From a virus, in IMG/VR virus record IMGVR_UViG_3300018412_000025, positions 1 to 44,753 of that record: DNA of 44,753 nt; one strand, written 5' to 3'. Position 1 is the stretch's first letter. Each line of letters begins with the position of its first letter. The notes beneath the pieces are model-generated. The model saw nothing but the letters and a program-made list of their open reading frames with translations, was not told the DNA's origin and ran no database searches. The position numbers were made by a program, and so were the translations under genes. Positions 1 through 44,753 of the stretch are shown here, piece by piece.

Positions 1-140
1 GTAATTCACGGGTATCTTTATAATATAGGAAGCAAGTATCTTTATCGATGGGTGGCGGGTTTCTTTGTGTGATAGGTGGCAGGTATCTTTGTTTGTGGTG
101 GCGGGTGTTTTTGGTTGCAGTGTTGCAGGTATCTTTGCTT
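1..140. repeat. Left hairpin telomere arm with subterminal iterons
   Basis: Base 1 is the dyad centre of the telomere palindrome. Bases 1-60 match the mirrored right arm at 54 of 60 positions; the six differences (10, 22, 23, 31, 35, 46) are all transitions. A unit close to GGTATCTTTAT followed by a G-rich half (like TAGGTGGCA) starts at 11, 35, 58, 82, about 104 and 128, so its period is 21-25 bp. The later copies are degenerate (GGTTTCTTT at 58, GGTGTTTTT at 104). The right arm has copies at the mirrored distances 11, 35, 58 and 82 from its tip. The arms are probably read by the protelomerase. Confidence 0.9.
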
Positions 141-2740: not shown

Positions 2741-2992
2741 ATGTCACAACAAGATAGTAACACCGGCTTTTATATATTTCCAAAGGGAACCGTTGATATT
2801 TCTGAAAATAGAAATACGTGGTCAAATGATGAACCGTTTCAATTATCATTTAGTAGTGAAGATCACAATGGATGGGGTATTACTAAAGCAATAAGTAAAA
2901 CTGAAGTCGAAGGAATTACTGAAGATAAAGTGGAAGCGTTTTATATTGAAGCGCTGAATTTACTAGGGATAGCTAATGAGGTGGCAGCATGA
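2741..2992 (+). CDS. Hypothetical protein (83 aa) upstream of the methyltransferase
   Basis: This 83-residue acidic protein overlaps the methyltransferase start by 4 bp (ATGA), so the two are probably translationally coupled. An AAAGGA ribosome site precedes the ATG. Its C-terminal half looks helical (TEDKVEAFYIEALNLLGIANE). I recognise no family; a helper of the methyltransferase is suggested by position only. Confidence 0.6.
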   Translation: MSQQDSNTGFYIFPKGTVDISENRNTWSNDEPFQLSFSSEDHNGWGITKAISKTEVEGITEDKVEAFYIEALNLLGIANEVAA

Positions 2993-4383
2993 GTCTTGCA
3001 ATGAAACAAGGTGAAATTGTTGTTGATAATTTTGCAGGAGGTGGCGGCACAAGCACTGGTATTGAGCTTGGCCTAAACAGATACGTTGATATTGCGATTA
3101 ATCACGACAAAGACGCAATTGATATGCACAAATTAAATCACCCGGAGACAAAACATTATTGTGAGTCAGTATGGGATGTTGACCCTGTTGAAGCCTGCGC
3201 AGGCAGACCCGTTGGCCTCGCTTGGTTTTCGCCTGATTGCAAACATTTTTCAAAAGCAAAAGGAAATAAGCCGGTTAATAACAATATCCGGGGCTTGGCA
3301 TGGGTAGCTGTTCGCTGGGCTGCTCTGGTTAATGTACGTGTGATGATGCTTGAAAATGTAGAGGAGTTTTTAACATGGGGGCCAATCGGGGATGATGGAA
3401 AGCCTTGCAAAAAAAGGGCTGGTGAAACTTTTCAGGCATTTAAAAGCGCTTTAACGACCGGGCTTGATAAAAACCACCCGGCCATTGCCGATATTAAAAT
3501 GGCGCTTGGTGATGATTTTAATTTAGAGCAGATTGCAAAGGGATTGGGTTATCAAGTTGAGTTTAAAATATTGAAAGCTTGTGACTATGGCGTCCCGACA
3601 ATTAGAAAACGCTTGTTTCTGATTGCCCGTAAAGACAACGAACCTATCACCTGGCCTGCGGCTACTCATGGCGACGGATTGGAGCCATATAAAACCGCCG
3701 CCGACATTATTGACTGGTCAATACCAGTGCGATCTATTTTCAACAGAAAACGTCCTTTAGTCGAAAAAACATTAAAACGCATCGCAAAAGGCTTGGAAAA
3801 ATATGTTTTTCAAGCCGAAGAACAATTCGTTGTACCAGGCGAATGCACAATTCCGATAATTGACAGGCAGTTTGGCAAGTCAACGTGCAATCCAGTAACG
3901 ACCCCGCTTGGAACAATAACAGCAGGGGGGTTGGGTAAATGCGCATTAGTCACAAGCCACATGCTAAAACTGCGTGGAACAAATATCGGACATGGCACAA
4001 ATGAGCCGGTTCATACTATTTCAGCCGGTGGTCTTCATATCGGTGAGGTAAGGGCCTTTTTAGTTAAATACTATGGCACTGGTGGTGCGGTTAGCTGCAA
4101 TCAACCATTAGATACAATCACCGTTAAGGATCGTTTTGGCCTGGTCACTATCAAAGGTGAAAATTATCAAATTATTGATATTGGCATGCGCATGTTGGAA
4201 CCGCATGAACTGTTCGCCGCCATGGGATTTCCTGTTAATTATCAGATTAGCCATGACAGTAACGGGAAAAAATTATCTAAAGCTAAGCAAGTTGCTCGAT
4301 GTGGTAATGCGGTTTGTCCTACGATGGCGCAAGTTCTGGTGATAGCAAATGTAGAAATTAAACAAAGTCGCATTGCGGCATAA
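2989..4383 (+). CDS. DNA (cytosine-5-)-methyltransferase, phage type
   Basis: It transfers a methyl group from S-adenosylmethionine to C5 of cytosine in duplex DNA, probably shielding the phage from host restriction. Motif I reads DNFAGGGGTSTG (residues 13-24), and motif VI contains ENV (122-124). The C-terminal motif X region contains CGNAVCPTMAQVL. The catalytic loop reads SPDCKHFSKAKG (Cys84), so the usual PPC is PDC. The middle target-recognition region, about residues 235-390, carries repeat-like phrases such as TISAGGL and ITAGGL. No restriction endonuclease is adjacent, so it looks like a solitary enzyme. Confidence 0.92.
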   Translation: MSLAMKQGEIVVDNFAGGGGTSTGIELGLNRYVDIAINHDKDAIDMHKLNHPETKHYCESVWDVDPVEACAGRPVGLAWFSPDCKHFSKAKGNKPVNNNIRGLAWVAVRWAALVNVRVMMLENVEEFLTWGPIGDDGKPCKKRAGETFQAFKSALTTGLDKNHPAIADIKMALGDDFNLEQIAKGLGYQVEFKILKACDYGVPTIRKRLFLIARKDNEPITWPAATHGDGLEPYKTAADIIDWSIPVRSIFNRKRPLVEKTLKRIAKGLEKYVFQAEEQFVVPGECTIPIIDRQFGKSTCNPVTTPLGTITAGGLGKCALVTSHMLKLRGTNIGHGTNEPVHTISAGGLHIGEVRAFLVKYYGTGGAVSCNQPLDTITVKDRFGLVTIKGENYQIIDIGMRMLEPHELFAAMGFPVNYQISHDSNGKKLSKAKQVARCGNAVCPTMAQVLVIANVEIKQSRIAA

Positions 4384-13793: not shown

Positions 13794-14108
13794 TTATTCT
13801 GGCTTGACGGGCCAGGCAATGTCGTATGGATCAGTAAACATTTGCGGGACATCGCGTAATGATTGGCGGTAATCCTTATATTGCGCTTGTTTTTCCAGTG
13901 ATAATGGCGAGTCAATGGCTTGCGTGTGGTCAGCGGCAGCAACTAGCTCGTCACGTTTTTTACGAGCTGCGCTCCATTGCTGCTCATTCTCGTATTCTTT
14001 TTGTCTCAGGACAGACTCGATAGCGTCGCTATTCATGCCAAGGTTTAGCATGTATTCTCGGCTGGTGTCGGTGTGTCGCTTGCCTTGATTTATATATTCA
14101 AATCTCAC
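13794..14108 (-). CDS. Putative tail-fibre/tail assembly chaperone
   Basis: The 104-residue protein ends with YRQSLRDVPQ and IAWPVKPE, phrases seen in small phage tail assembly chaperones that sit next to variable fibre genes. The middle is helical and charged (VLRQKEYENEQQW). It overlaps the reverse transcriptase stop by 4 bp (ATGA), placing it in the DGR transcript. It could help fold the diversified fibre protein. Confidence 0.7.
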   Translation of the reverse strand: MRFEYINQGKRHTDTSREYMLNLGMNSDAIESVLRQKEYENEQQWSAARKKRDELVAAADHTQAIDSPLSLEKQAQYKDYRQSLRDVPQMFTDPYDIAWPVKPE

Positions 14109-15136
14109 TGCTTTCTCCTGAATGGCTCTTTAAAAAGAGCTTGTTTTAAATAATGTGCATCGGCATGACTGGCGTGACCAAGCCATGACTGGATATTTTG
14201 GTTAATATCAGAAAACTGAATCTCTCCGGCGGCATACTGCTTACGGTACTTTTTCAGTTTTGTTTTTATTCGTTTAACCGTGCACTTCCTTAATAGCCGG
14301 TGCGTTGAGTAGATTCTATAGCCTAGAAAATCCAAGGCGCGACCGTTCTTTTTGGCTATTGGAAACACCTGCGTTTTGCTGTTTGTTTTTAACCTTAATT
14401 GCTGATGCAAAAACAGCTCGATATCCCTTCGCCACTGGTGTAGCTGCGCCTTGTCATGATGGATAATTACAAAGTCATCCATGTAGCGAGCATAGTTTTT
14501 TGCTTTTAATTCGTGCTTGGCAAATCTATCTAGCTCATTAAGGTAGATATTGGCAAATATCTGACTGGTTAAATTACCAAGTGGGATCCCAACTCCAAGC
14601 GCGTCGCATGGGCTATTGTCGATAATATAAAACAGAATTTGCTTTGTATGGCTGCATCGTATCTTTGCGTCAATAATTGACTTTAGAATGTGGTGATCGA
14701 TACTTGAGAAGTAACGGCTAATATCAGCCTTGAGCGCAAAAGCTTTGCCATGCTTTCTTTCTACATCTCTGATAAAAGCTTGCGCCCTATCAGCCCCTTT
14801 GTGTGTACCCTTGCCTCGCCTGCACGCGTAAGAATCGTGAATGTATTGCTTGTCAAACAACTGCTCTATAATGTTGTATATCGCTCGATGCACCACCCTG
14901 TCTCTAAAGTGAGGTGCTGATATCAAACGACGTTTTGGTTCAAAAACATAAAAATGATGATAAGCCGACATTTGATACATGCCCCACATCAACTCATTTT
15001 GAATCTGAATTACGTTTTCTTCTAGGTTGTTGAAAAACGCGAGCGTGGAGCTTGCCTTGGTCTTTCCTTTTCTGCACTGGTATGCAGCGTCGAGAATATT
15101 TTCAAAGCTTATTATCTTATCAAAAGAGCAGCCCAT
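14105..15136 (-). CDS. DGR reverse transcriptase
   Basis: This enzyme copies the template-repeat RNA into cDNA with errors at adenines. Motifs in order: KADISRYFSSID, then IPLGNLTSQ (the LG...SQ signature of DGR enzymes instead of QG...SP), then the catalytic YMDD at residues 218-221, counted from the Met at 15136. That start gives 343 residues, normal for the family. The same frame is open further upstream to ATG 15376, which overlaps the avd stop, but that reading passes through the template repeat. I therefore prefer 15136 or a nearby start, although no clear ribosome site is seen. It lies downstream of avd and the template repeat, as in BPP-1. Confidence 0.93.
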   Translation of the reverse strand: MGCSFDKIISFENILDAAYQCRKGKTKASSTLAFFNNLEENVIQIQNELMWGMYQMSAYHHFYVFEPKRRLISAPHFRDRVVHRAIYNIIEQLFDKQYIHDSYACRRGKGTHKGADRAQAFIRDVERKHGKAFALKADISRYFSSIDHHILKSIIDAKIRCSHTKQILFYIIDNSPCDALGVGIPLGNLTSQIFANIYLNELDRFAKHELKAKNYARYMDDFVIIHHDKAQLHQWRRDIELFLHQQLRLKTNSKTQVFPIAKKNGRALDFLGYRIYSTHRLLRKCTVKRIKTKLKKYRKQYAAGEIQFSDINQNIQSWLGHASHADAHYLKQALFKEPFRRKQ

Positions 15137-15247
15137 CGACGCATCGATGGACTTGATTCGTGTTTCAGCAATTGCTGAGGTATCGGCATCCTTTTCAAAA
15201 TTGCACTGGCAGCACCCCGTGGGGTGATTGCTTCTGGCGTCATCAAG
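15137..15247 (-). ncRNA. Spacer region of the DGR template RNA
   Basis: The 111 bp between the template repeat and the preferred reverse transcriptase start matches the position of the BPP-1 Sp region, which primes cDNA synthesis with Avd. It contains a strong hairpin CACCCC/GGGGTG at 15213-15226. It is read in frame with the reverse transcriptase, but constraint as RNA is the better explanation. Confidence 0.6.
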
Positions 15248-15363
15248 AGCGGGACGAAAACCAATGTTACTGTTCGCATTCGAACGACCATTATTCAGAT
15301 TGAGCATGCCCAAGCCGGCGTTCGAGCCATTGTTCCAGTTGCCCCCGCGAAGCGGGAATCGGT
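15248..15363 (-). repeat. DGR template repeat (TR)
   Basis: This 116-bp segment aligns without gaps to 15804-15919 with 16 differences. In the coding sense 14 of these are at A in this copy (to G, C or T) and only two are at T. It carries many AAC/AAT codons where the target has other residues. AAY mutated to NNY can encode 15 amino acids and no stop codon. Confidence 0.96.
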
Positions 15364-15372
15364 CTCGCGTAA

Positions 15373-15729
15373 TCATAATGCCGATACCTGTTGTTTAGAT
15401 TTAACAGATTTGATCCAGCCGCCAATCATGCGCCCTATCTCAACAAGCATCTCGATCCACATTTGATATTTTTTAACATCTAAATAACGCAAGTCTTTCG
15501 CAAGCCTAACGCGACGTTTTAGTATTGCTAATTCAATATCAAGATCGGTTAATGTTGTCTTTTTGTGATAACGCTTAAATGCCGTAATAATCAACCGCTG
15601 CAACTGCAGCATTGATACGCGAATTTCAGCGCCCAACACATGCCTTTCGTGCCTTGGGAATTGTTTTATTGCTTGATACCCATATAACAACATATCGCGA
15701 CATCTATCTTCAATGATTAGAGCTGGCAA
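15373..15729 (-). CDS. avd: DGR accessory variability determinant (Avd)
   Basis: The 118-residue basic helical protein lies between the variable gene and the template repeat, as in BPP-1. The helices include LLYGYQAIKQFPRHERHVLG, a phrase typical of the four-helix-bundle Avd/S23-like family, and ILKRRVRLAKDLRYLDVKKY. Avd forms a pentamer that binds the template RNA and reverse transcriptase. Its last codons overlap an ATG that opens the frame through the template repeat. Confidence 0.93.
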   Translation of the reverse strand: MPALIIEDRCRDMLLYGYQAIKQFPRHERHVLGAEIRVSMLQLQRLIITAFKRYHKKTTLTDLDIELAILKRRVRLAKDLRYLDVKKYQMWIEMLVEIGRMIGGWIKSVKSKQQVSAL

Positions 15730-15754
15730 TCTATTTCCTATTTATTTTTTTAAA

Positions 15755-15770
15755 CTGCGCTACCGCGCAG
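15755..15770. other. Hairpin/cruciform downstream of the variable repeat
   Basis: CTGCGC/GCGCAG (6-bp perfect GC-rich stem, 4-base loop reading GGTA on the coding strand) lies 34 bp past the variable repeat. A hairpin with a 4-base loop at this position promotes target recognition in the BPP-1 DGR. No T-run follows on the coding strand, so it is not an intrinsic terminator. Confidence 0.7.
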
Positions 15771-15791
15771 AGAGCAAATATTCAAGTTACA

Positions 15792-17048
15792 TTACGCAAA
15801 GAAAGCGGGACGAAAACCAATGTAACTGCCCGCAATCGAACGACCATTCCCCAGATCGAGCACGCCCAAGCCGGCGCTCGAGCCATCGCCCCAGCGGCCC
15901 CCGCGACGCGGGAATCGGTTGCCATAGTTGCGCGCATAGATTGCACCGCCGACGGTTGTGGTTGATGCAGACTCAATGAGCAAGCGGCGGAGCAGTTCTG
16001 ACGGGGTGTAATTTGCGCCTTTGGTGATGGCTGCAAAATGGCTATTGGTCATGTACGGATAATCGTTGCTGTCATTATCAACAGGACCGTTTCTGTTTGT
16101 TACCGCATTATTTAAAATCGGTGAGCCAATGCTGCCGGCGCCGTCCTGACTGGCCGATGGCGAGTCAAAATAAGCCCCGTTTTTATGCCAGTTTACCTCT
16201 GCAATGCTCGGGTCATTATCCAGTGTCGTAATAATTTGACCGTCATCAAGCATCATTTGATCGATCCATTCGTAGACATTTCCGACTAAATCATGTATTC
16301 CCCATGCGCTGTGATCATGTGCCCAAGATGAAGGTCCCTTGCCTGTGTCTGTTCTGCCCGTGCCTGATGTTTCACCGGGCATGCCGTTATCACTGCGCCG
16401 AGCTGTTTCCAACTTGTTTTCATGGCTGCGGCCGTAGTTAGTGTTGCCGCGTGGAGTGGTGTCATTTGCTAATGACCACAGCGCAATTGCAGCCCACTCA
16501 TGTATAGACATCATGTGCCAGCCATCACCCTTTGTTGTGCAGAGTGCTTTAGCTGCATCGTAATTAACTGATGTGCGCGGTTGCACGCCGCCCACCACAC
16601 TGCAACCACCATTAGCTCCGGAAGACGCTAAATACTTAGCGATAAAAACTTCGCCGCGTGTCACACCGTTGCTAGCAAACATAGTTGGCGTGCCACTGCC
16701 GAGTTGCAGATCGACGCCTGTTTTTGCCAGTATAGCTGCATTCAAATCTTCGTAATTAAAGCGCGGAATGCGCACCATGATATTTGGATTGCCCTGGGCA
16801 TCGATTAATATTGTGTTGCGACCCCCGGATGCATCTTCGATAGCTTTTTTGTGGCCCTCGATAGCGTGTTCCGTCAGCTCGTCAACCTTCCCGTTGAAAT
16901 CAGCCTCGGCGCGACCTATTGCATCGTTTGCTTTTTTATCAAGCGCGCCCATCATTCCGCCGACTTCAGAAGTTTGCTGTTGACTAGCCGCGGTTTGCTC
17001 TTGTGTTGCTTGCTTAATAAGCTGTAGTTCTTCTAAAACGCTAGACAT
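15792..17048 (-). CDS. DGR target: tail-fibre protein with C-type-lectin/FGE-type fold
   Basis: The 418-residue protein is the presumed receptor-binding tip. I chose ATG 17048 because GGAGG precedes it; it overlaps the upstream fibre gene by 8 bp. Residues 1-80 are coiled coil, probably the attachment and trimerisation region. From about 115 onward it resembles the formylglycine-generating-enzyme/C-type-lectin fold, with WHMMSIHEWAAIALWS and GIHDLVGNVYEWIDQM. The last about 40 residues are the variable repeat and contain ten substituted residues relative to the template: R385, G387, D388, S391, V396, D398, G400, I405, G407, Y409. It ends GFRPAFFA, as usual for DGR lectin folds. Confidence 0.93.
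   Translation of the reverse strand: MSSVLEELQLIKQATQEQTAASQQQTSEVGGMMGALDKKANDAIGRAEADFNGKVDELTEHAIEGHKKAIEDASGGRNTILIDAQGNPNIMVRIPRFNYEDLNAAILAKTGVDLQLGSGTPTMFASNGVTRGEVFIAKYLASSGANGGCSVVGGVQPRTSVNYDAAKALCTTKGDGWHMMSIHEWAAIALWSLANDTTPRGNTNYGRSHENKLETARRSDNGMPGETSGTGRTDTGKGPSSWAHDHSAWGIHDLVGNVYEWIDQMMLDDGQIITTLDNDPSIAEVNWHKNGAYFDSPSASQDGAGSIGSPILNNAVTNRNGPVDNDSNDYPYMTNSHFAAITKGANYTPSELLRRLLIESASTTTVGGAIYARNYGNRFPRRGGRWGDGSSAGLGVLDLGNGRSIAGSYIGFRPAFFA
15804..15919 (-). repeat. DGR variable repeat (VR)
   Basis: The 116-bp 3' end of the target gene is homologous to the template repeat at 15248-15363. Its 3' part (coding sense, CATTGGTTTTCGTCCCGCT) is invariant between the copies and would hold the initiation-of-mutagenic-homing site. 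Differences cluster in the middle at template adenines. Confidence 0.96.
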
Positions 17049-17586
17049 TAACTGCCTCCAATTTGCGTAATCGTTCGCCCAGTTGCATTTGCGTATGAGC
17101 CTGTTTTGTTTGTACGACTTGGCTGCGGGTAAACGCAACCGCATCCATCATCATTTCAAGATCAATTATTAGGTTGAGGTTTTCGGTGCCAACAACCACT
17201 GTTACACTGTCTGCTGGCAAAGCCTCGACATTAATCGTCAGCCACTGCGCGACTTTAATTGCAGGGGTTCTATAACCTAAAGTCTTTCCTGCCAGAGAAT
17301 AAGCGCCGAGTAAGGTGCCGTCAGAGAGGAACACTCCAATCTCACGGATGGCATACTCTAAGTCACCATTAAATACGCCAGAAATGCGTAAGCTACTACC
17401 ATAATCTTGGTAGTCAGTAAGCTCTATACGTTCCATTTCACGAGAAAGTTTCGTTTGCGTTTTGCTGGGTGTGTAACTGCCATCCCCAAATGCTATATGA
17501 GTTATCTCGCCCTTTAATCCGTTTTCCTTTGCGGATAGCAGCTTGGCTAGTCCGGCTTCTGTAAATTGCAGCTTTAAACCTGCCAT
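17041..17586 (-). CDS. Tail-fibre N-terminal/collar protein (P2 gpH-like N-terminus)
   Basis: The 181-residue protein looks like the baseplate-attaching N-terminal domain of P2-type tail fibres, with the phrases ITHIAFGDGSYTP and EYAIREIGVFLSDGTLLGAYS. In P2 this is fused to a long fibre; here the frame ends and the diversified lectin protein follows as a separate gene. It presumably connects gpI/gpJ to that protein. Confidence 0.85.
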   Translation of the reverse strand: MAGLKLQFTEAGLAKLLSAKENGLKGEITHIAFGDGSYTPSKTQTKLSREMERIELTDYQDYGSSLRISGVFNGDLEYAIREIGVFLSDGTLLGAYSLAGKTLGYRTPAIKVAQWLTINVEALPADSVTVVVGTENLNLIIDLEMMMDAVAFTRSQVVQTKQAHTQMQLGERLRKLEAVNV

Positions 17587-37520: not shown

Positions 37521-37545
37521 TTAACATTTGTTTATTTGTACAAAT
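37496..37545. promoter_or_regulatory. Control-site cluster at the repA promoter region
   Basis: Variants of the 13-mer family (TTGTTTTAATGT, AACATTTGTTTATTTG) and the dyad AAATGT-N8-ACATTT lie within 70 bp of the repA start. Together with the parA site this places the family at both plasmid-maintenance operons. Confidence 0.65.
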
Positions 37546-37563
37546 AATATATTGAGAATCACC

Positions 37564-40500
37564 GTGTCTAAAAATTTATTTTATGAATTCTGGAAAGAAC
37601 AGTTTGGATCCGCTCAAGGTGTGATCGACTACTTTAACGATGACATTACTATTAATGCAGAAGCAATTGGTGTTAATTGGTCAGCGGTAAAAGATCAGCT
37701 TTCTTGGTTGTCTGGTAAAGACGGAAAATTCAATGCACAAGGCAGCAAGTACATCAACAAAGGGTTTAAGCACTCTGTTGGTGTTTATGCGTCAATCGAG
37801 AAAGATAAAAATGATGTGCAATTCCCGTTAATCACTTTTAAAAACAAAGGTGGTGCAGGTGACACGATAGTTGTTAATGGCCTGACGTATATTTGGGGCC
37901 TGTATAAAGAACTAAAAAACGGAAAAATACCACAGCAAAAGAGTGATGATTGGGCGCGACAAAAACGCGAACGGGATGAGCAAACCCAACGTAAGCGCCA
38001 AGCTGCCATCCTTGAACAGCAAGCAGAAAATAAAAGGAGGGCAGCAAACGTTGAAAAAGAATTAACAAACCACACTACACTGCCTCGCGCAGTTTCTTTC
38101 GTTTATACGGATAAGAAATTAATCCCGCAAATTTTGAAACGTTTTGATGCCCGAGTAGGGATAGATAAACACGGTTCTCACCTTTCTTTTTTACTGCAAA
38201 ATGTACACGGCAAGTCAGTTGGTGTTCAACGCATTTACGAAAACAAGATCACAATGGCCGATGGCCATAAAACCGATAAAACATTTACATGGGGCATGGA
38301 AAAAGACGGTGCTCATTTTATTATCGGTGACTTGACCACTGCAGATCGGATTTATTCAGCAGAAAGTTTTGGTACTGCTGCATCTATCTTTAGAGCAATG
38401 ACAGAGATATTAAAAATAAACGTAGCGGTAATCGTTGCAATGGATGCGGGAAATCTGGTTAAAGTTATTGCTGCATACAAAGCGCATAAACCTTGGCTAG
38501 ATATTATGCCATGTTGTGATAATGACATGTGGAAACAAAAGCAAGGCAAAGGAAACAAAGGGATGCAGGTTGCCCTTGAATTACTAGGAACGGATAAAGA
38601 CTTAAAAGTTTACGCACCCAACTTTGATAAAGTGGACCCTACTTATCAACCAACCGATTTTAATGATTTGCATGTAAGGGCGGGGTTAGCTGAAGTTGCT
38701 CGACAATTAAAGGGCAATATTGCCCGAGTAAAAAACCAAGGTGATTTGTTTGAAAAATCACTGATACAGTTAAATTATATTAATTGGGAATCGACTCAAA
38801 AAGAGGCAATGAAATGTGCCGTCACTGGCATGCAAATCGGCTTGCCGAAATATAGGCCAAGTGATGTCATTGCCTTAATTCTTGATACTGCGTTAAAAGC
38901 CGGTATCCCCCGCGAACGCCTCGACATACAAAAATTAAATAAAAAAGCGACACAGATTTTTCATGCGAAAGTGAAAGAAGCGCAATCATTCAGATCGTTT
39001 TCTACTCGTATCACTAACGATAAATTCAGACCTGAACATATTACCTATACAAAATTCAATAAATCGGTTATCGATGAGGAAGTGCTAAATTTCGCCACGA
39101 GCCGAGACGGGATTGTGATCATTCGTTTTCCAATGGCATCGGGTAAAACTCAAAATTTAATAAAACCAGTGATGAGGCAGGAAGAATATTCAGCCTTTTT
39201 CGCACACCGGGTTTCATTGATTGGTGGCGCATGGGATGCACTAAATGACAAATTACCATCACACATTGCACCGATAACTCACTATCAAGAAAAGCACATT
39301 CACGACATGCTAACGTGTTCTAACAAGCTCGCATGTTGTATTAATTCATGTTTAAAACCAGTGTTTCAGCCTGTTTTAAATCATTTGAATGCACTTTGTA
39401 TTGATGAAGCAGCGCAAACATTACGCCATATTACCGCTGGTAGTGCAATTCAATATCCGGTAGCTGTATTTAATAAGCTTTTGAGCATGATGGCTACCAC
39501 AAAAGACCAGGTCATTTTAGCAGATGCAGATGCCAGTGATACATTGGTTGAATTTGCAGAGCTTGCTTTAAAGCAACGCAATGCGCGGTTAGTTGAAGAG
39601 TTTGGCGAAAATGCACCAGTGCATAAAATTCATATTATTGATGGCCATACTCATTGTTCTGATTTTAATATCTATTATACAGATGGTGACACGGCGTTCT
39701 TAAAAGCGAAACAAGACGTTGGCGCAGGTTATAAAGTGTTGATTGCTAATGACTCGGCTAATGATTCAGAAAAATTATTTGAATCTATCAAAGCAAGTTA
39801 CCCGGACAAAAAAGGTTTGTTGATTTCATCTGATACCAAACCAGAAAAAGCGGTCGAGGTATTTAGTGATTCGCCAAATGCTATGAGTAAAAAATATGAT
39901 TACATTATTTATTCACCATCAATCAGCTCAGGTGTTTCCCTCGTAAACGGACACTTCCAAAAACATTACGGCATTTTCTGCGGAACAGTAGCACCGAGTG
40001 ATGCAGTACAAATGTTTCGACGTGACAGAAACGCACGAGATATTGTGCTTGGATTATCTACCATGCACAGCAGTCGTGAAGAAGATTCAATGGCTATGTG
40101 GTTGGGCATGATTCTCGCTAATGATAAACAGCTGGACATTAAAATTGATAATGAAACTGGTAAAATTGAGCTAGGTACCGATGACTTTCAATTTGACCGT
40201 TTCCGTCTTGATTTGATATCGCAAGAGAACAAAGCAAAAAATGATTTTGCGAACAATTTACTTTGTATTTTATATGGTGACGGTTACAACATTCACCAAC
40301 TGGACTCCACAGAACTTGATCAGGAAATTGGTAAATCAATTAAAGAGGCAGCTCGAGATCATATTAAAGCGATTGATAGGGGCCGTCACTTAACGCAAGC
40401 CACGCCGAATGAAGATGAAAAGAAAAAACTCGATAAAAAAATAAATCTAAACCGTGATGAGAAAGCACAGTTAAACAGATGGGACATTGAAAACTTACTG

Positions 40501-41316
40501 ATGATGGCTGTAAACGAGTCCAGCGTGGATTTTCATCATAAAGGCGGGCTAGGAAAGGTTAAGCTTTTTGAGTTGCTTAATATGAGTCCTGAAACTGCAA
40601 AAGAGTTTGACGACTTAGAAATAGCAAACGGGGTGCAACCATCTAAACGCATGTATCTAGTGAAACAACGCCAAGCATTACGCGACTTTTTTGAAATTGC
40701 TCGTTTTAATTGGGAAACAGGGCAAGGTACAGCAACCGAAGAAACAATAACGGCGGCTATCGAATATCTAACTGCAGGTGACAATATTCACTTGTTTAAT
40801 AACTGGTACCGTTTCGGCGGTTATATCAACCCATTCAGCAAACAGCTAAAACCTGTCAATAAAGCTAAAGCGATTTTAAGCGCATTAGGGCTGGAGATGG
40901 AAACTACGCAGCTTGGGCGCAATAACGACGACTCTGTGAAGCGTCAGCGCTATACAATCAACGCTGATACGTGGAACCTGATGTCTGGTATTAATACACT
41001 ACGAACAGCGAAAAAAACCAGCGCCTTTAAATTGATAATTCTGGATGGAGGGATGATCCATTCTTCTTCTGATAACTCTATAGTAGAAGAAAAAGAAATG
41101 GATCATGACAAATCCGCTATTAGCTTGGGTTCTATGGCTGATTTGATTGTTGAATCATTAAAAATTCCAGCGTCTTTGATTGATAAAATAGCAAATGGCC
41201 TTAAGTTTTTCGGAATTAAGAAAGCTGACCACCGAGAAATTGGGGCTTCGACTCTAAAAGAGGTGATTGAAGATCTTTATTCCGAAATAAAAATGGTCAA
41301 AACCGTCAATCGGTAA
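37564..41316 (+). CDS. repA: RepA-type replication protein (primase-helicase)
   Basis: This protein of 1250 residues starts and sustains replication of the linear plasmid. I prefer GTG 37564 (GAGAA upstream) over TTG 37528, which lies inside the control sites. A charged helical region near 115-160 precedes a TOPRIM-like part (VAVIVAMDAGN, then IMPCCDNDMW). The helicase part has a Walker-A-like FPMASGKTQNLI, LCIDEAAQTLRH and VILADADASD. N15 RepA (about 1300 residues) has the same order, and there the origin lies inside the gene. I cannot place the origin here. Confidence 0.92.
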   Translation: MSKNLFYEFWKEQFGSAQGVIDYFNDDITINAEAIGVNWSAVKDQLSWLSGKDGKFNAQGSKYINKGFKHSVGVYASIEKDKNDVQFPLITFKNKGGAGDTIVVNGLTYIWGLYKELKNGKIPQQKSDDWARQKRERDEQTQRKRQAAILEQQAENKRRAANVEKELTNHTTLPRAVSFVYTDKKLIPQILKRFDARVGIDKHGSHLSFLLQNVHGKSVGVQRIYENKITMADGHKTDKTFTWGMEKDGAHFIIGDLTTADRIYSAESFGTAASIFRAMTEILKINVAVIVAMDAGNLVKVIAAYKAHKPWLDIMPCCDNDMWKQKQGKGNKGMQVALELLGTDKDLKVYAPNFDKVDPTYQPTDFNDLHVRAGLAEVARQLKGNIARVKNQGDLFEKSLIQLNYINWESTQKEAMKCAVTGMQIGLPKYRPSDVIALILDTALKAGIPRERLDIQKLNKKATQIFHAKVKEAQSFRSFSTRITNDKFRPEHITYTKFNKSVIDEEVLNFATSRDGIVIIRFPMASGKTQNLIKPVMRQEEYSAFFAHRVSLIGGAWDALNDKLPSHIAPITHYQEKHIHDMLTCSNKLACCINSCLKPVFQPVLNHLNALCIDEAAQTLRHITAGSAIQYPVAVFNKLLSMMATTKDQVILADADASDTLVEFAELALKQRNARLVEEFGENAPVHKIHIIDGHTHCSDFNIYYTDGDTAFLKAKQDVGAGYKVLIANDSANDSEKLFESIKASYPDKKGLLISSDTKPEKAVEVFSDSPNAMSKKYDYIIYSPSISSGVSLVNGHFQKHYGIFCGTVAPSDAVQMFRRDRNARDIVLGLSTMHSSREEDSMAMWLGMILANDKQLDIKIDNETGKIELGTDDFQFDRFRLDLISQENKAKNDFANNLLCILYGDGYNIHQLDSTELDQEIGKSIKEAARDHIKAIDRGRHLTQATPNEDEKKKLDKKINLNRDEKAQLNRWDIENLLMMAVNESSVDFHHKGGLGKVKLFELLNMSPETAKEFDDLEIANGVQPSKRMYLVKQRQALRDFFEIARFNWETGQGTATEETITAAIEYLTAGDNIHLFNNWYRFGGYINPFSKQLKPVNKAKAILSALGLEMETTQLGRNNDDSVKRQRYTINADTWNLMSGINTLRTAKKTSAFKLIILDGGMIHSSSDNSIVEEKEMDHDKSAISLGSMADLIVESLKIPASLIDKIANGLKFFGIKKADHREIGASTLKEVIEDLYSEIKMVKTVNR

Positions 41317-42496: not shown

Positions 42497-44509
42497 TTAT
42501 TTGCTTATTTCTTTCTTACAGAGAGATTTGTAGTGAACTTTGAACTCTTTAATTGCAGAACGTTTATTGCCTTTTATCAGTATTTCAAAGTATGTTTCAT
42601 TTACAGTTGCCGAAACATGCCACATTTTATCCTTTTTCACTGCGTTAATTTCAATTTCGTTTGGTTCTGGCCATGGCAGTGTTTCCTTTTCTTTGATTTT
42701 TTCAGGTTGCTCCTGTTCAACTTGCTTTTCGTCTTTTTTGGCTTGCTCTTGCTCGGCCAGTAACTGCTCTGCTAATAATTCTTCAAGTTTTTCTTGGAAC
42801 TCGCTGAGTTCATCCTCTATCAGTTCTTGCTCTTGTTCTAGTTCCGTATCCTCTTCTTCTATTTCTTTAATTCTATTCTGGGCCTCTATTTTTTCATCAT
42901 CAAGATCAGTGCGTTCGTTAGAGATCTCTTCTGTTCTGCTTTCTATCTCTTCAATGCGCTCTTGCAGCTCAAGTATTTCACGCTCTTTTTTGTTTTTAGG
43001 CTTTTTAGGCTCATCTTTTGGCGGCTCAAATTTACTGATATTTATAACTGGGCCAACATAATTATATGTACTTTTAGGTCCAAAATCTTCGCCAAGATAG
43101 CCTTTAATAATGTTTAGATTGAGTTGTTTCCCGTCGAACAGACAGTGACGGCGGATGTATGATGATTTTATTTGTTCATGCAGCAATCCACCAGCAACTT
43201 CATTTTTTAGCCATTGATGTACCATTGCCATTTTGGGTGCGCGCAAGTAAGCGTTCATGGCATCATCGAACTGGCTCAAGTATTCAACAAGGGCTGCTTG
43301 TATTTTATCTGAGTCTTTATCGGTACTTTCTTCTTTCGGCTCAAATAATTTCACACTTGTAACATCGTTGTCTATTTTGAAAGAGTCATAGTGTAGTTGG
43401 GTTTCAAATAGTGAGTGGCCGAGTACTCTATGTCTGTATGCTGATCTAGATTCACCTGGTACTGCATGATCTTGATAAGTGACTTCAGTGTACAAGGCGC
43501 GGCAATCTTTTAAACTGAAATGTCCGCTTTGCATTAGTGAACGGACAGCAATATTAATTGTGCTTTCGTATCTGATGTGTATTGCCCTGTTGTGATAGTA
43601 GTCTTTAATATCGCCAGCTTTAACTGTACTCTCAGTTTTCTCACCAAGTACATTACGATAACTTAATACATCATCATCCGTTTTTTTTCTTAACAACTTC
43701 AAAGCTTTAATGACTGTTTCCGCTTTTATCATACAAGGTATTTTATAGGGTTTCATGTCCTCAAACAGATGTCTGTTTTTTGTTTTTAGCTGTCCGCTGA
43801 ATAATAGCGTTTCATCATCCACCGTTTTAAATTCTGCCGTTTTCATTATTTCTGTGAGTCGTCGGCCAGTAGATAATGCAATGCCGATACATAGATCACT
43901 TACTGTTGGGTTTTTACTTGTCAATAATCGCGTAGCTGTCTCTTTTACCCAATCAGGGTTTACCAATACCTGACTCTTTAGTTTTTTAGTAAGACTCTTA
44001 TTATCATCGTCACTTATCCAATCGCGGACTGCACCACGTGGCTCAAACATATAATAAGAGTGGTGCTCTATCTTTAAATTAAGCAAGTCTGATTTGTAAT
44101 CTGAACCTGTTACCGACTTTGCTCTGAGAAGTATTAAATTCTCTCGTAATTTCTCAATGGGCAATGATGTGTCGAGCATGCCAGAGAGCCCGTCAACACT
44201 GTCAGAATACTTACGTAGAAAGGCTTTAACGTGTGTATCAATCAAATGATGCTTGTAACCTAATGCTTTAATTGCATTACGATAATTTTCCATAAGCTTG
44301 CAAAAATATCGGTATGAAACTAATGGTTTCGATAATAATTCACCTGTTTTATTATCTGTTACAACACCTAATTTATTGCGTTGTGCTCTAGCCAAATTAT
44401 TACAACTATCTGTTACTCGTTTAGACCACCCTGATTTCTTTTCTCCTGCTGCCGCCTCTATATCAACAACTCTCTTAACTACGTCTGCAACTGATGTGAT
44501 ATTTGACAT
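42497..44509 (-). CDS. telN: Protelomerase (hairpin telomere resolvase, TelN/TelK family)
   Basis: It cuts the telomere palindrome and rejoins the strands as covalently closed hairpins. The tyrosine-recombinase core has Arg217 (TGRRLTE), Lys242 (GQLKTKN), a likely Arg337 (KDCRALY), His365 (VLGHSLF) and nucleophile Tyr374 (LHYDSF). The Arg-Lys and His-Tyr spacings (25 and 9) equal those in TelK. The N-terminal helical part spans residues 1-200. A DNA-binding stirrup-like region follows the core. Residues about 500-605 form a very acidic coiled coil, then a small C-terminal domain. At 670 residues it is longer than TelN (631). It lies next to its target. Confidence 0.95.
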   Translation of the reverse strand: MSNITSVADVVKRVVDIEAAAGEKKSGWSKRVTDSCNNLARAQRNKLGVVTDNKTGELLSKPLVSYRYFCKLMENYRNAIKALGYKHHLIDTHVKAFLRKYSDSVDGLSGMLDTSLPIEKLRENLILLRAKSVTGSDYKSDLLNLKIEHHSYYMFEPRGAVRDWISDDDNKSLTKKLKSQVLVNPDWVKETATRLLTSKNPTVSDLCIGIALSTGRRLTEIMKTAEFKTVDDETLLFSGQLKTKNRHLFEDMKPYKIPCMIKAETVIKALKLLRKKTDDDVLSYRNVLGEKTESTVKAGDIKDYYHNRAIHIRYESTINIAVRSLMQSGHFSLKDCRALYTEVTYQDHAVPGESRSAYRHRVLGHSLFETQLHYDSFKIDNDVTSVKLFEPKEESTDKDSDKIQAALVEYLSQFDDAMNAYLRAPKMAMVHQWLKNEVAGGLLHEQIKSSYIRRHCLFDGKQLNLNIIKGYLGEDFGPKSTYNYVGPVINISKFEPPKDEPKKPKNKKEREILELQERIEEIESRTEEISNERTDLDDEKIEAQNRIKEIEEEDTELEQEQELIEDELSEFQEKLEELLAEQLLAEQEQAKKDEKQVEQEQPEKIKEKETLPWPEPNEIEINAVKKDKMWHVSATVNETYFEILIKGNKRSAIKEFKVHYKSLCKKEISK

Positions 44510-44537
44510 AAAAACCCCTTAAAAATTAATAGTAAAT

Positions 44538-44692
44538 AAAGATACCTGTAACAATAGTATTTAAACATAAAAAAGTCAACAACACCCGCAACAATAATAT
44601 TTAAAGATACCCGCCGCCTACCGCCCAAAGATACCCGCCACCCATCAATAAAGATACCTGCCTCCTATACCATAAAGATACCTGTGAATTAC
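44538..44692. repeat. Right hairpin telomere arm with iterons
   Basis: AAAGATACC occurs at 44538, 44603, 44627, 44650 and 44674; the last four are 23-24 bp apart and end 10, 34, 57 and 81 bases from the tip, the same distances as on the left arm. The tip GAATTAC|GTAATTC is at 44692/44693. Confidence 0.9.
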
Positions 44693-44753
44693 GTAATTCA
44701 CAGGTATCTTTATGGTATAGGAGGCAGGTATCTTTATTGATGGGTGGCGGGTA
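44632..44753. other. Perfect 122-bp telomere palindrome (hairpin read-through)
   Basis: Bases 44693-44753 are the exact reverse complement of 44632-44692. They match the right arm, not the diverged left arm, so they represent reading around the right hairpin or a right-right replication junction. The unit-length genome would be 44,692 bp. Confidence 0.92.

Follow-up and report, generated by a model that had tools for sequence, protein, structure and literature searches.

The window, by which we mean the whole stretch of DNA analysed here, is the IMG/VR virus record IMGVR_UViG_3300018412_000025, with a length of 44,753 bases and a record class of "linear". Genes for terminase, portal, tail sheath, tape measure and baseplate proteins lie in the middle of the genome, and these phage structural and packaging genes were found together with plasmid partition and replication genes. 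Near the left end, a ParA partition ATPase is encoded on the plus strand (505-1143; NF041546, E 5.6e-67), with a small plus-strand ORF at its 3' side (1127-1477; phrog_15913) whose product is a candidate partner of ParA. A CyRepA1-family plasmid replication protein of the phage Rep/primase kind occupies 37528-41316, also on the plus strand (NF042913, E 6.7e-76), and the minus strand of 42497-44509 carries a gene for a protelomerase (telomere resolvase) of 670 amino acids. The dyad that marks the ends of the genome sits in the gap between parA and the protelomerase gene.

Several further features were noted in passing. Just 5' of parA, at 424-465, there is a perfect 19-bp inverted repeat with a 4-nt loop, a candidate operator or partition site. 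Positions 14105-17144 hold a diversity-generating retroelement that encodes Avd (phrog_3206) as well as a reverse transcriptase, and whose variable protein has an FGE-sulfatase domain. Of the 116 positions compared between its template repeat (15248-15363) and its variable repeat (15804-15919), 16 are mismatched, and the template has A at 14 of these. A DNA methyltransferase gene was located at 2989-4383, with a match to cytosine-5 (Dcm-like) enzymes that falls below the NCBIfam cut-off.

The protelomerase

Assignment of the protelomerase was based on Pfam, profile and predicted-fold comparisons. The protein matched PF16684 (ResT-TelK_cat) with an E value of 1.1e-31, and a profile search returned TelK (2v6e) at E 1.2e-26. 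TelK was also the best PDB match when the predicted fold was searched (E 2.7e-13; AF2 model pLDDT 81.7), and TelA and ResT were matched in both searches. Residues were aligned with those that PMC3558466 names as the active site of TelA. The candidate catalytic Arg, Lys, Arg, His and Tyr are R216/R217, K242, R337, H365 and Y374, and they are invariant across 19 aligned protelomerase sequences.

The C-terminal domain was modelled as three strands and a helix on a long helix, with a pLDDT of about 90 over its core. Fold matches to this domain were weak and mostly dsRBD-like (Z of 5.9 or less), with a single AP2 match at E 0.67. The idea of an AP2-like arm-binding domain found no support in the fold searches or in Pfam.

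Upstream of the gene, a candidate promoter, TTGACT-17-TATTGT (44551-44579, minus strand), was recognised by consensus match only, and a promoter scan of the window gave no more sites than shuffled sequence.

A terminal palindrome at the right end

The last 61 bases of the record (44693-44753) are the exact reverse complement of the outer 61 bp of the right telomere arm, telR (44632-44692), and the dyad thus lies between 44692 and 44693, with palindrome arms that reach the end of the record. As no other perfect zero-spacer palindrome with arms longer than 8 nt was found in the 44,753 bases, a chance origin of this 61+61 structure is excluded. The left telomere arm, telL (1-61), begins exactly at the dyad and is identical to telR at 54 of 61 positions. 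When the first 61 bases were compared with the fold-back, mismatches were counted at positions 10, 22, 23, 31, 35, 46 and 61 (6 of 60, or 7 of 61). The first position that distinguishes the arms is 10, and from there the fold-back follows the right-arm sequence for 52 bases. Because it carries the right-arm base at all seven diagnostic positions, the junction is telRR and not a circular junction, and because the last 61 bases are a duplicate, the unique genome is 44,692 bp long.

The preliminary description had claimed that the final 61 bases reverse-complement the preceding 61, that the sequence from base 1 begins at this dyad and is a copy diverged at 6 of 60 positions, and that past 44692 the right arm is repeated in place of the left; our counts agree on each point. 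Its conclusion that the molecule is linear and 44,692 bp long is likewise supported, both by the arm identity of the fold-back and by the flanking protelomerase and parA genes. As to its claim of hairpin telomeres, the right end is supported by the fold-back, which was seen at that end only; the left end simply begins at the dyad, and a hairpin there is deduced from this exact start. The 61-nt length of the fold-back probably originates in assembly rather than in biology, and we would guess that the palindrome length of 122 reflects k+1 for an assembler k of 121.

Ends of related contigs

A search of viral contigs with the single protelomerase of the window found no relative, and no exact match to the DNA of the telomere tip turned up in IMG/VR; relatives were found by an alignment-based search. 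Sixteen IMG/VR contigs with a related protelomerase were counted; in 15 of them the sequence stops within about 250 nt of the inferred dyad, whereas 0.83 of 16 would be expected for random contig ends within 600 nt of it. Distances were calculated with a fixed start-codon offset of 185, which makes single values approximate; a start codon lies nearer in L023, L024 and L027, whose directly read ends are at about +31, -17 and -11, respectively. The one contig that reads through an intact telRL is L025. Not included in the count were L028 and L051 (short weak matches), L038 (weak), L037 (a Hamiltonella chromosome) and the MAG contig L036, though the last of these also ends at the dyad. The par-side end of G006 (L032) begins, as the window does, at the dyad position inferred from the element register. 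These stops fit real ends, but palindromes or repeats that break short-read assembly may also explain them.

Shorter fold-backs of 8 to 32 nt were present at seven ends of five other contigs (L017, 12 nt; L024, 17; L034, 17; L027, 11; L035, 19; L053, 32; L036, 8). They cannot distinguish telRR from telRL, as they do not reach beyond the stretch common to both arms, or only one of the arms is available, as for L017; L027 and L035 were judged by analogy with Val-yong3 and phiARM81ld, respectively.

Two other observations arose from this set. L037 (4992-6431) is a C-terminally short protelomerase ORF of 479 amino acids in a 705-kb Hamiltonella defensa contig, perhaps a remnant, and no telRL palindrome was found near it. 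Both ends of IMG/VR contig 2548876821_000002 (L046 1-60 and the end of L052) begin with sequence that resembles a sequencing adapter.

A linear genome with probable hairpin ends

We conclude that the window very probably holds the whole genome (44,692 bp), in its prophage form, of a telomere phage of the VHML-like kind, maintained as a linear plasmid with closed hairpins. Telomere phages with hairpin ends are a type already known, and that the window belongs to it is well supported. Covalent closure of the ends in the cell is what we infer from the junction, the arm identity, the enzyme and the gene order. Circularization or replication would create the palindromic junctions telRL, telRR and telLL, which the phage protelomerase would cut at the dyad, TAC|GTA, between parA and its own gene. 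Each strand would then be joined to its own complement, leaving a closed hairpin at each end of the genome (base 1 and base 44692). The terminal 61 bases may represent assembler read-through of the right hairpin, or of an identical telRR in replicating dimers.

The second of these sources would still make the window a telomere phage, with the fold-back derived from telRR in unresolved head-to-head replication dimers and not from a closed hairpin. The sequence would be identical for dimer and hairpin, and ntelRR and ntelLL are described as N15 replication products in PMC12624138; the exact start of the left end at the dyad and the relatives' contigs that stop at or near it fit real ends better, however, and we regard the dimer source as unlikely. 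It is highly improbable that the molecule is circular, or a virion form with intact telRL, and that the fold-back arose as an artefact of assembly or template switching. Read-through of telRL is indeed seen in L025 and in records of related phages and plasmids, but the fold-back turns exactly at the dyad common to both ends and has the right arm at 7 of 7 positions, and telRL, perfect for just 9+9 nt (first mismatch at 10), would presumably be too short to mislead an ordinary assembler.

A hairpin chromosome end can be evident directly from the sequence of an IMG/VR contig, whether metagenomic or from an isolate, and contig ends that adjoin protelomerase genes mark hairpin-ended genomes.

Arrays of a short element in both arms

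The core site of both arms contains the 10-mer GGTATCTTTR at +11 from the dyad, and this element is repeated outward at about +35, +58, +82 and beyond. Spacing is about 24 bp and the outward direction is the same in both arms. In the left arm (11-137, plus strand), GGTATCTTTR-like 10-mers start at 11, 35, 58, 82, (104) and 128; in the right arm (44537-44682, minus strand), exact copies are at 44673-44682, 44649-44658, 44626-44635, 44602-44611 and 44537-44546. A scan of the whole window gave eight exact copies outside the fold-back, all of them within 160 bp of the tips, and with one mismatch or fewer there were 18 matches (2 of them inside the fold-back) against 4.6 expected.

The element is also found near the protelomerase promoter, where an element-like 10-mer overlaps the -35 side of the candidate site and an exact copy lies just 3' of the -10. 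When 16 upstream regions were compared, the element overlapped the -35 side of the best promoter match in seven and was located just past the -10 in six; the remainder do not fit this layout or have no clear promoter.

Eleven genomes, representing about nine lineages because MAR/VP58.5 and PCAh2/VA7 are near duplicates, were tested for recurrence of their own core element in the distal arms; VP882 and HY01, where no dyad reached 20/25, were left out. The element recurred in 11 of 11, with three to nine copies at the best offset and zero or one on the opposite strand, and in each genome none of 400 Markov shuffles reached the observed distal copy number. The relatives share the array layout, each with an element of its own, and the first copy is always +10 to +20 from the dyad. 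A search with the window's element gave seven distal copies in the arms of the window and no copy in those of the other ten genomes, although the protelomerases of its nearest relatives are 48-61% identical; core and array have changed together. Recurrence was weaker in the out-groups N15 and PY54 (3 copies and p 0.0125 each), phiHAP-1 (2; p 0.24) and K242 (1; p 0.55).

The Shewanella plasmid and L026 protelomerases lack the C-terminal domain, yet repeats of the array kind are present, which makes the domain dispensable for the repeats. Outside its array, the left arm has a single isolated GGTACAGTTA at 302-311, which is the type of element that the relatives carry; isolated sites of a similar kind occur at +245 to +317 in Val-yong3, VP58.5, MAR and L032.

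Possible function of the arrays

We suggest that the arrayed elements are putative protelomerase-binding sites for end-capping and autoregulation, with extra protelomerase on the arm elements capping the end and regulating its own promoter. A fuller version of this proposal, which we advance tentatively and rate at a little short of an even chance, is that in this branch of telomere phages protelomerase coats both ends via the ~24-bp repeats over about 140 bp per arm as well as its own promoter, forming a multi-protein cap that senses its own occupancy, and that the lineage of the window switched core and array specificity together.

Work on TelN offers some background. According to PMC12624138, TelN remains on hairpins and shields them from Mre11-Rad50, an activity that does not require its C-terminal domains; the authors of that study also speculate about end structures of higher order. 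The paper further records that repeats flanking the 56-bp core of N15 were already known. Among the papers searched on protelomerases with iterons and on resolvases with direct repeats, none described such arrays; the single paper listed for the second topic, on Borrelia, was unrelated.

The elements could instead be sites of another protein, as a partition (parS) array or Rep iterons. The left array is upstream of parA, and a Rep family is common to the window and several relatives. We consider this assignment doubtful, however. Both arms carry the array, the copy nearest the dyad is invariably at +10 to +20, a position that a protelomerase has to occupy, and arrays are found alongside two types of partition system. 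In VP58.5 and MAR, ParA is short and is followed by a small ORF, whereas phiARM81ld and Val-yong3 have long ParA-ParB pairs. If the arrays are protelomerase sites, they provide a concrete place to ask how a resolvase guards hairpin ends, and whether it does so as an array.

Comparison with known telomere phages

By sequence comparison, the nearest phages are VP58.5, MAR (vB_VpaM_MAR) and VHML (Vhmlvirus), with protelomerases 41-43% identical to that of the window over about 430-460 amino acids. A DNA search with bases 1-25000 found similarity to VP585 and VHML over about 10% of that segment. The three phages resemble the window in their parA-telRL-protelomerase order, their palindromic junction and their repeat spacing, and differ from it in the central hexamer (TAATTA against TACGTA), the element (TGTACA-type against GGTATCTTTR) and a much shorter linker before the C-terminal domain of the protelomerase. 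A palindromic telRL was present in the parA-protelomerase gap in all six records inspected (VP58.5, MAR, phiARM81ld, Val-yong3, PCAh2 and pVA7-2), being perfect for just 18 nt per arm in Val-yong3 and 19 in MAR.

Closer protelomerases, 47-61% identical to the window's, are encoded by uncultivated relatives from IMG/VR and by a contig of a Paraglaciecola MAG (L014-L021, L036 and L048). The TACGTA dyad of the window recurs where it is visible (L017 and L036) and is inferred for L032, and the element register of the group, approximately +11, +35, +59, +82 and +108, is like that of the window. The element itself is GGTACAGTTR-like in L017, L032 and L036, whereas GGTATCTTTR occurs in core and arms only in the window.

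The better-known phages N15, PY54 and phiKO2 (TelN, TelPY and TelK) share the protelomerase family, a palindromic telRL and a prophage that is a linear plasmid, as described in part in PMC10612081 and PMC12624138. They are more distant, as the protelomerases of N15 and PY54 are about 24% identical to that of the window, and the core element of these two phages recurs little compared with the arrays seen here.
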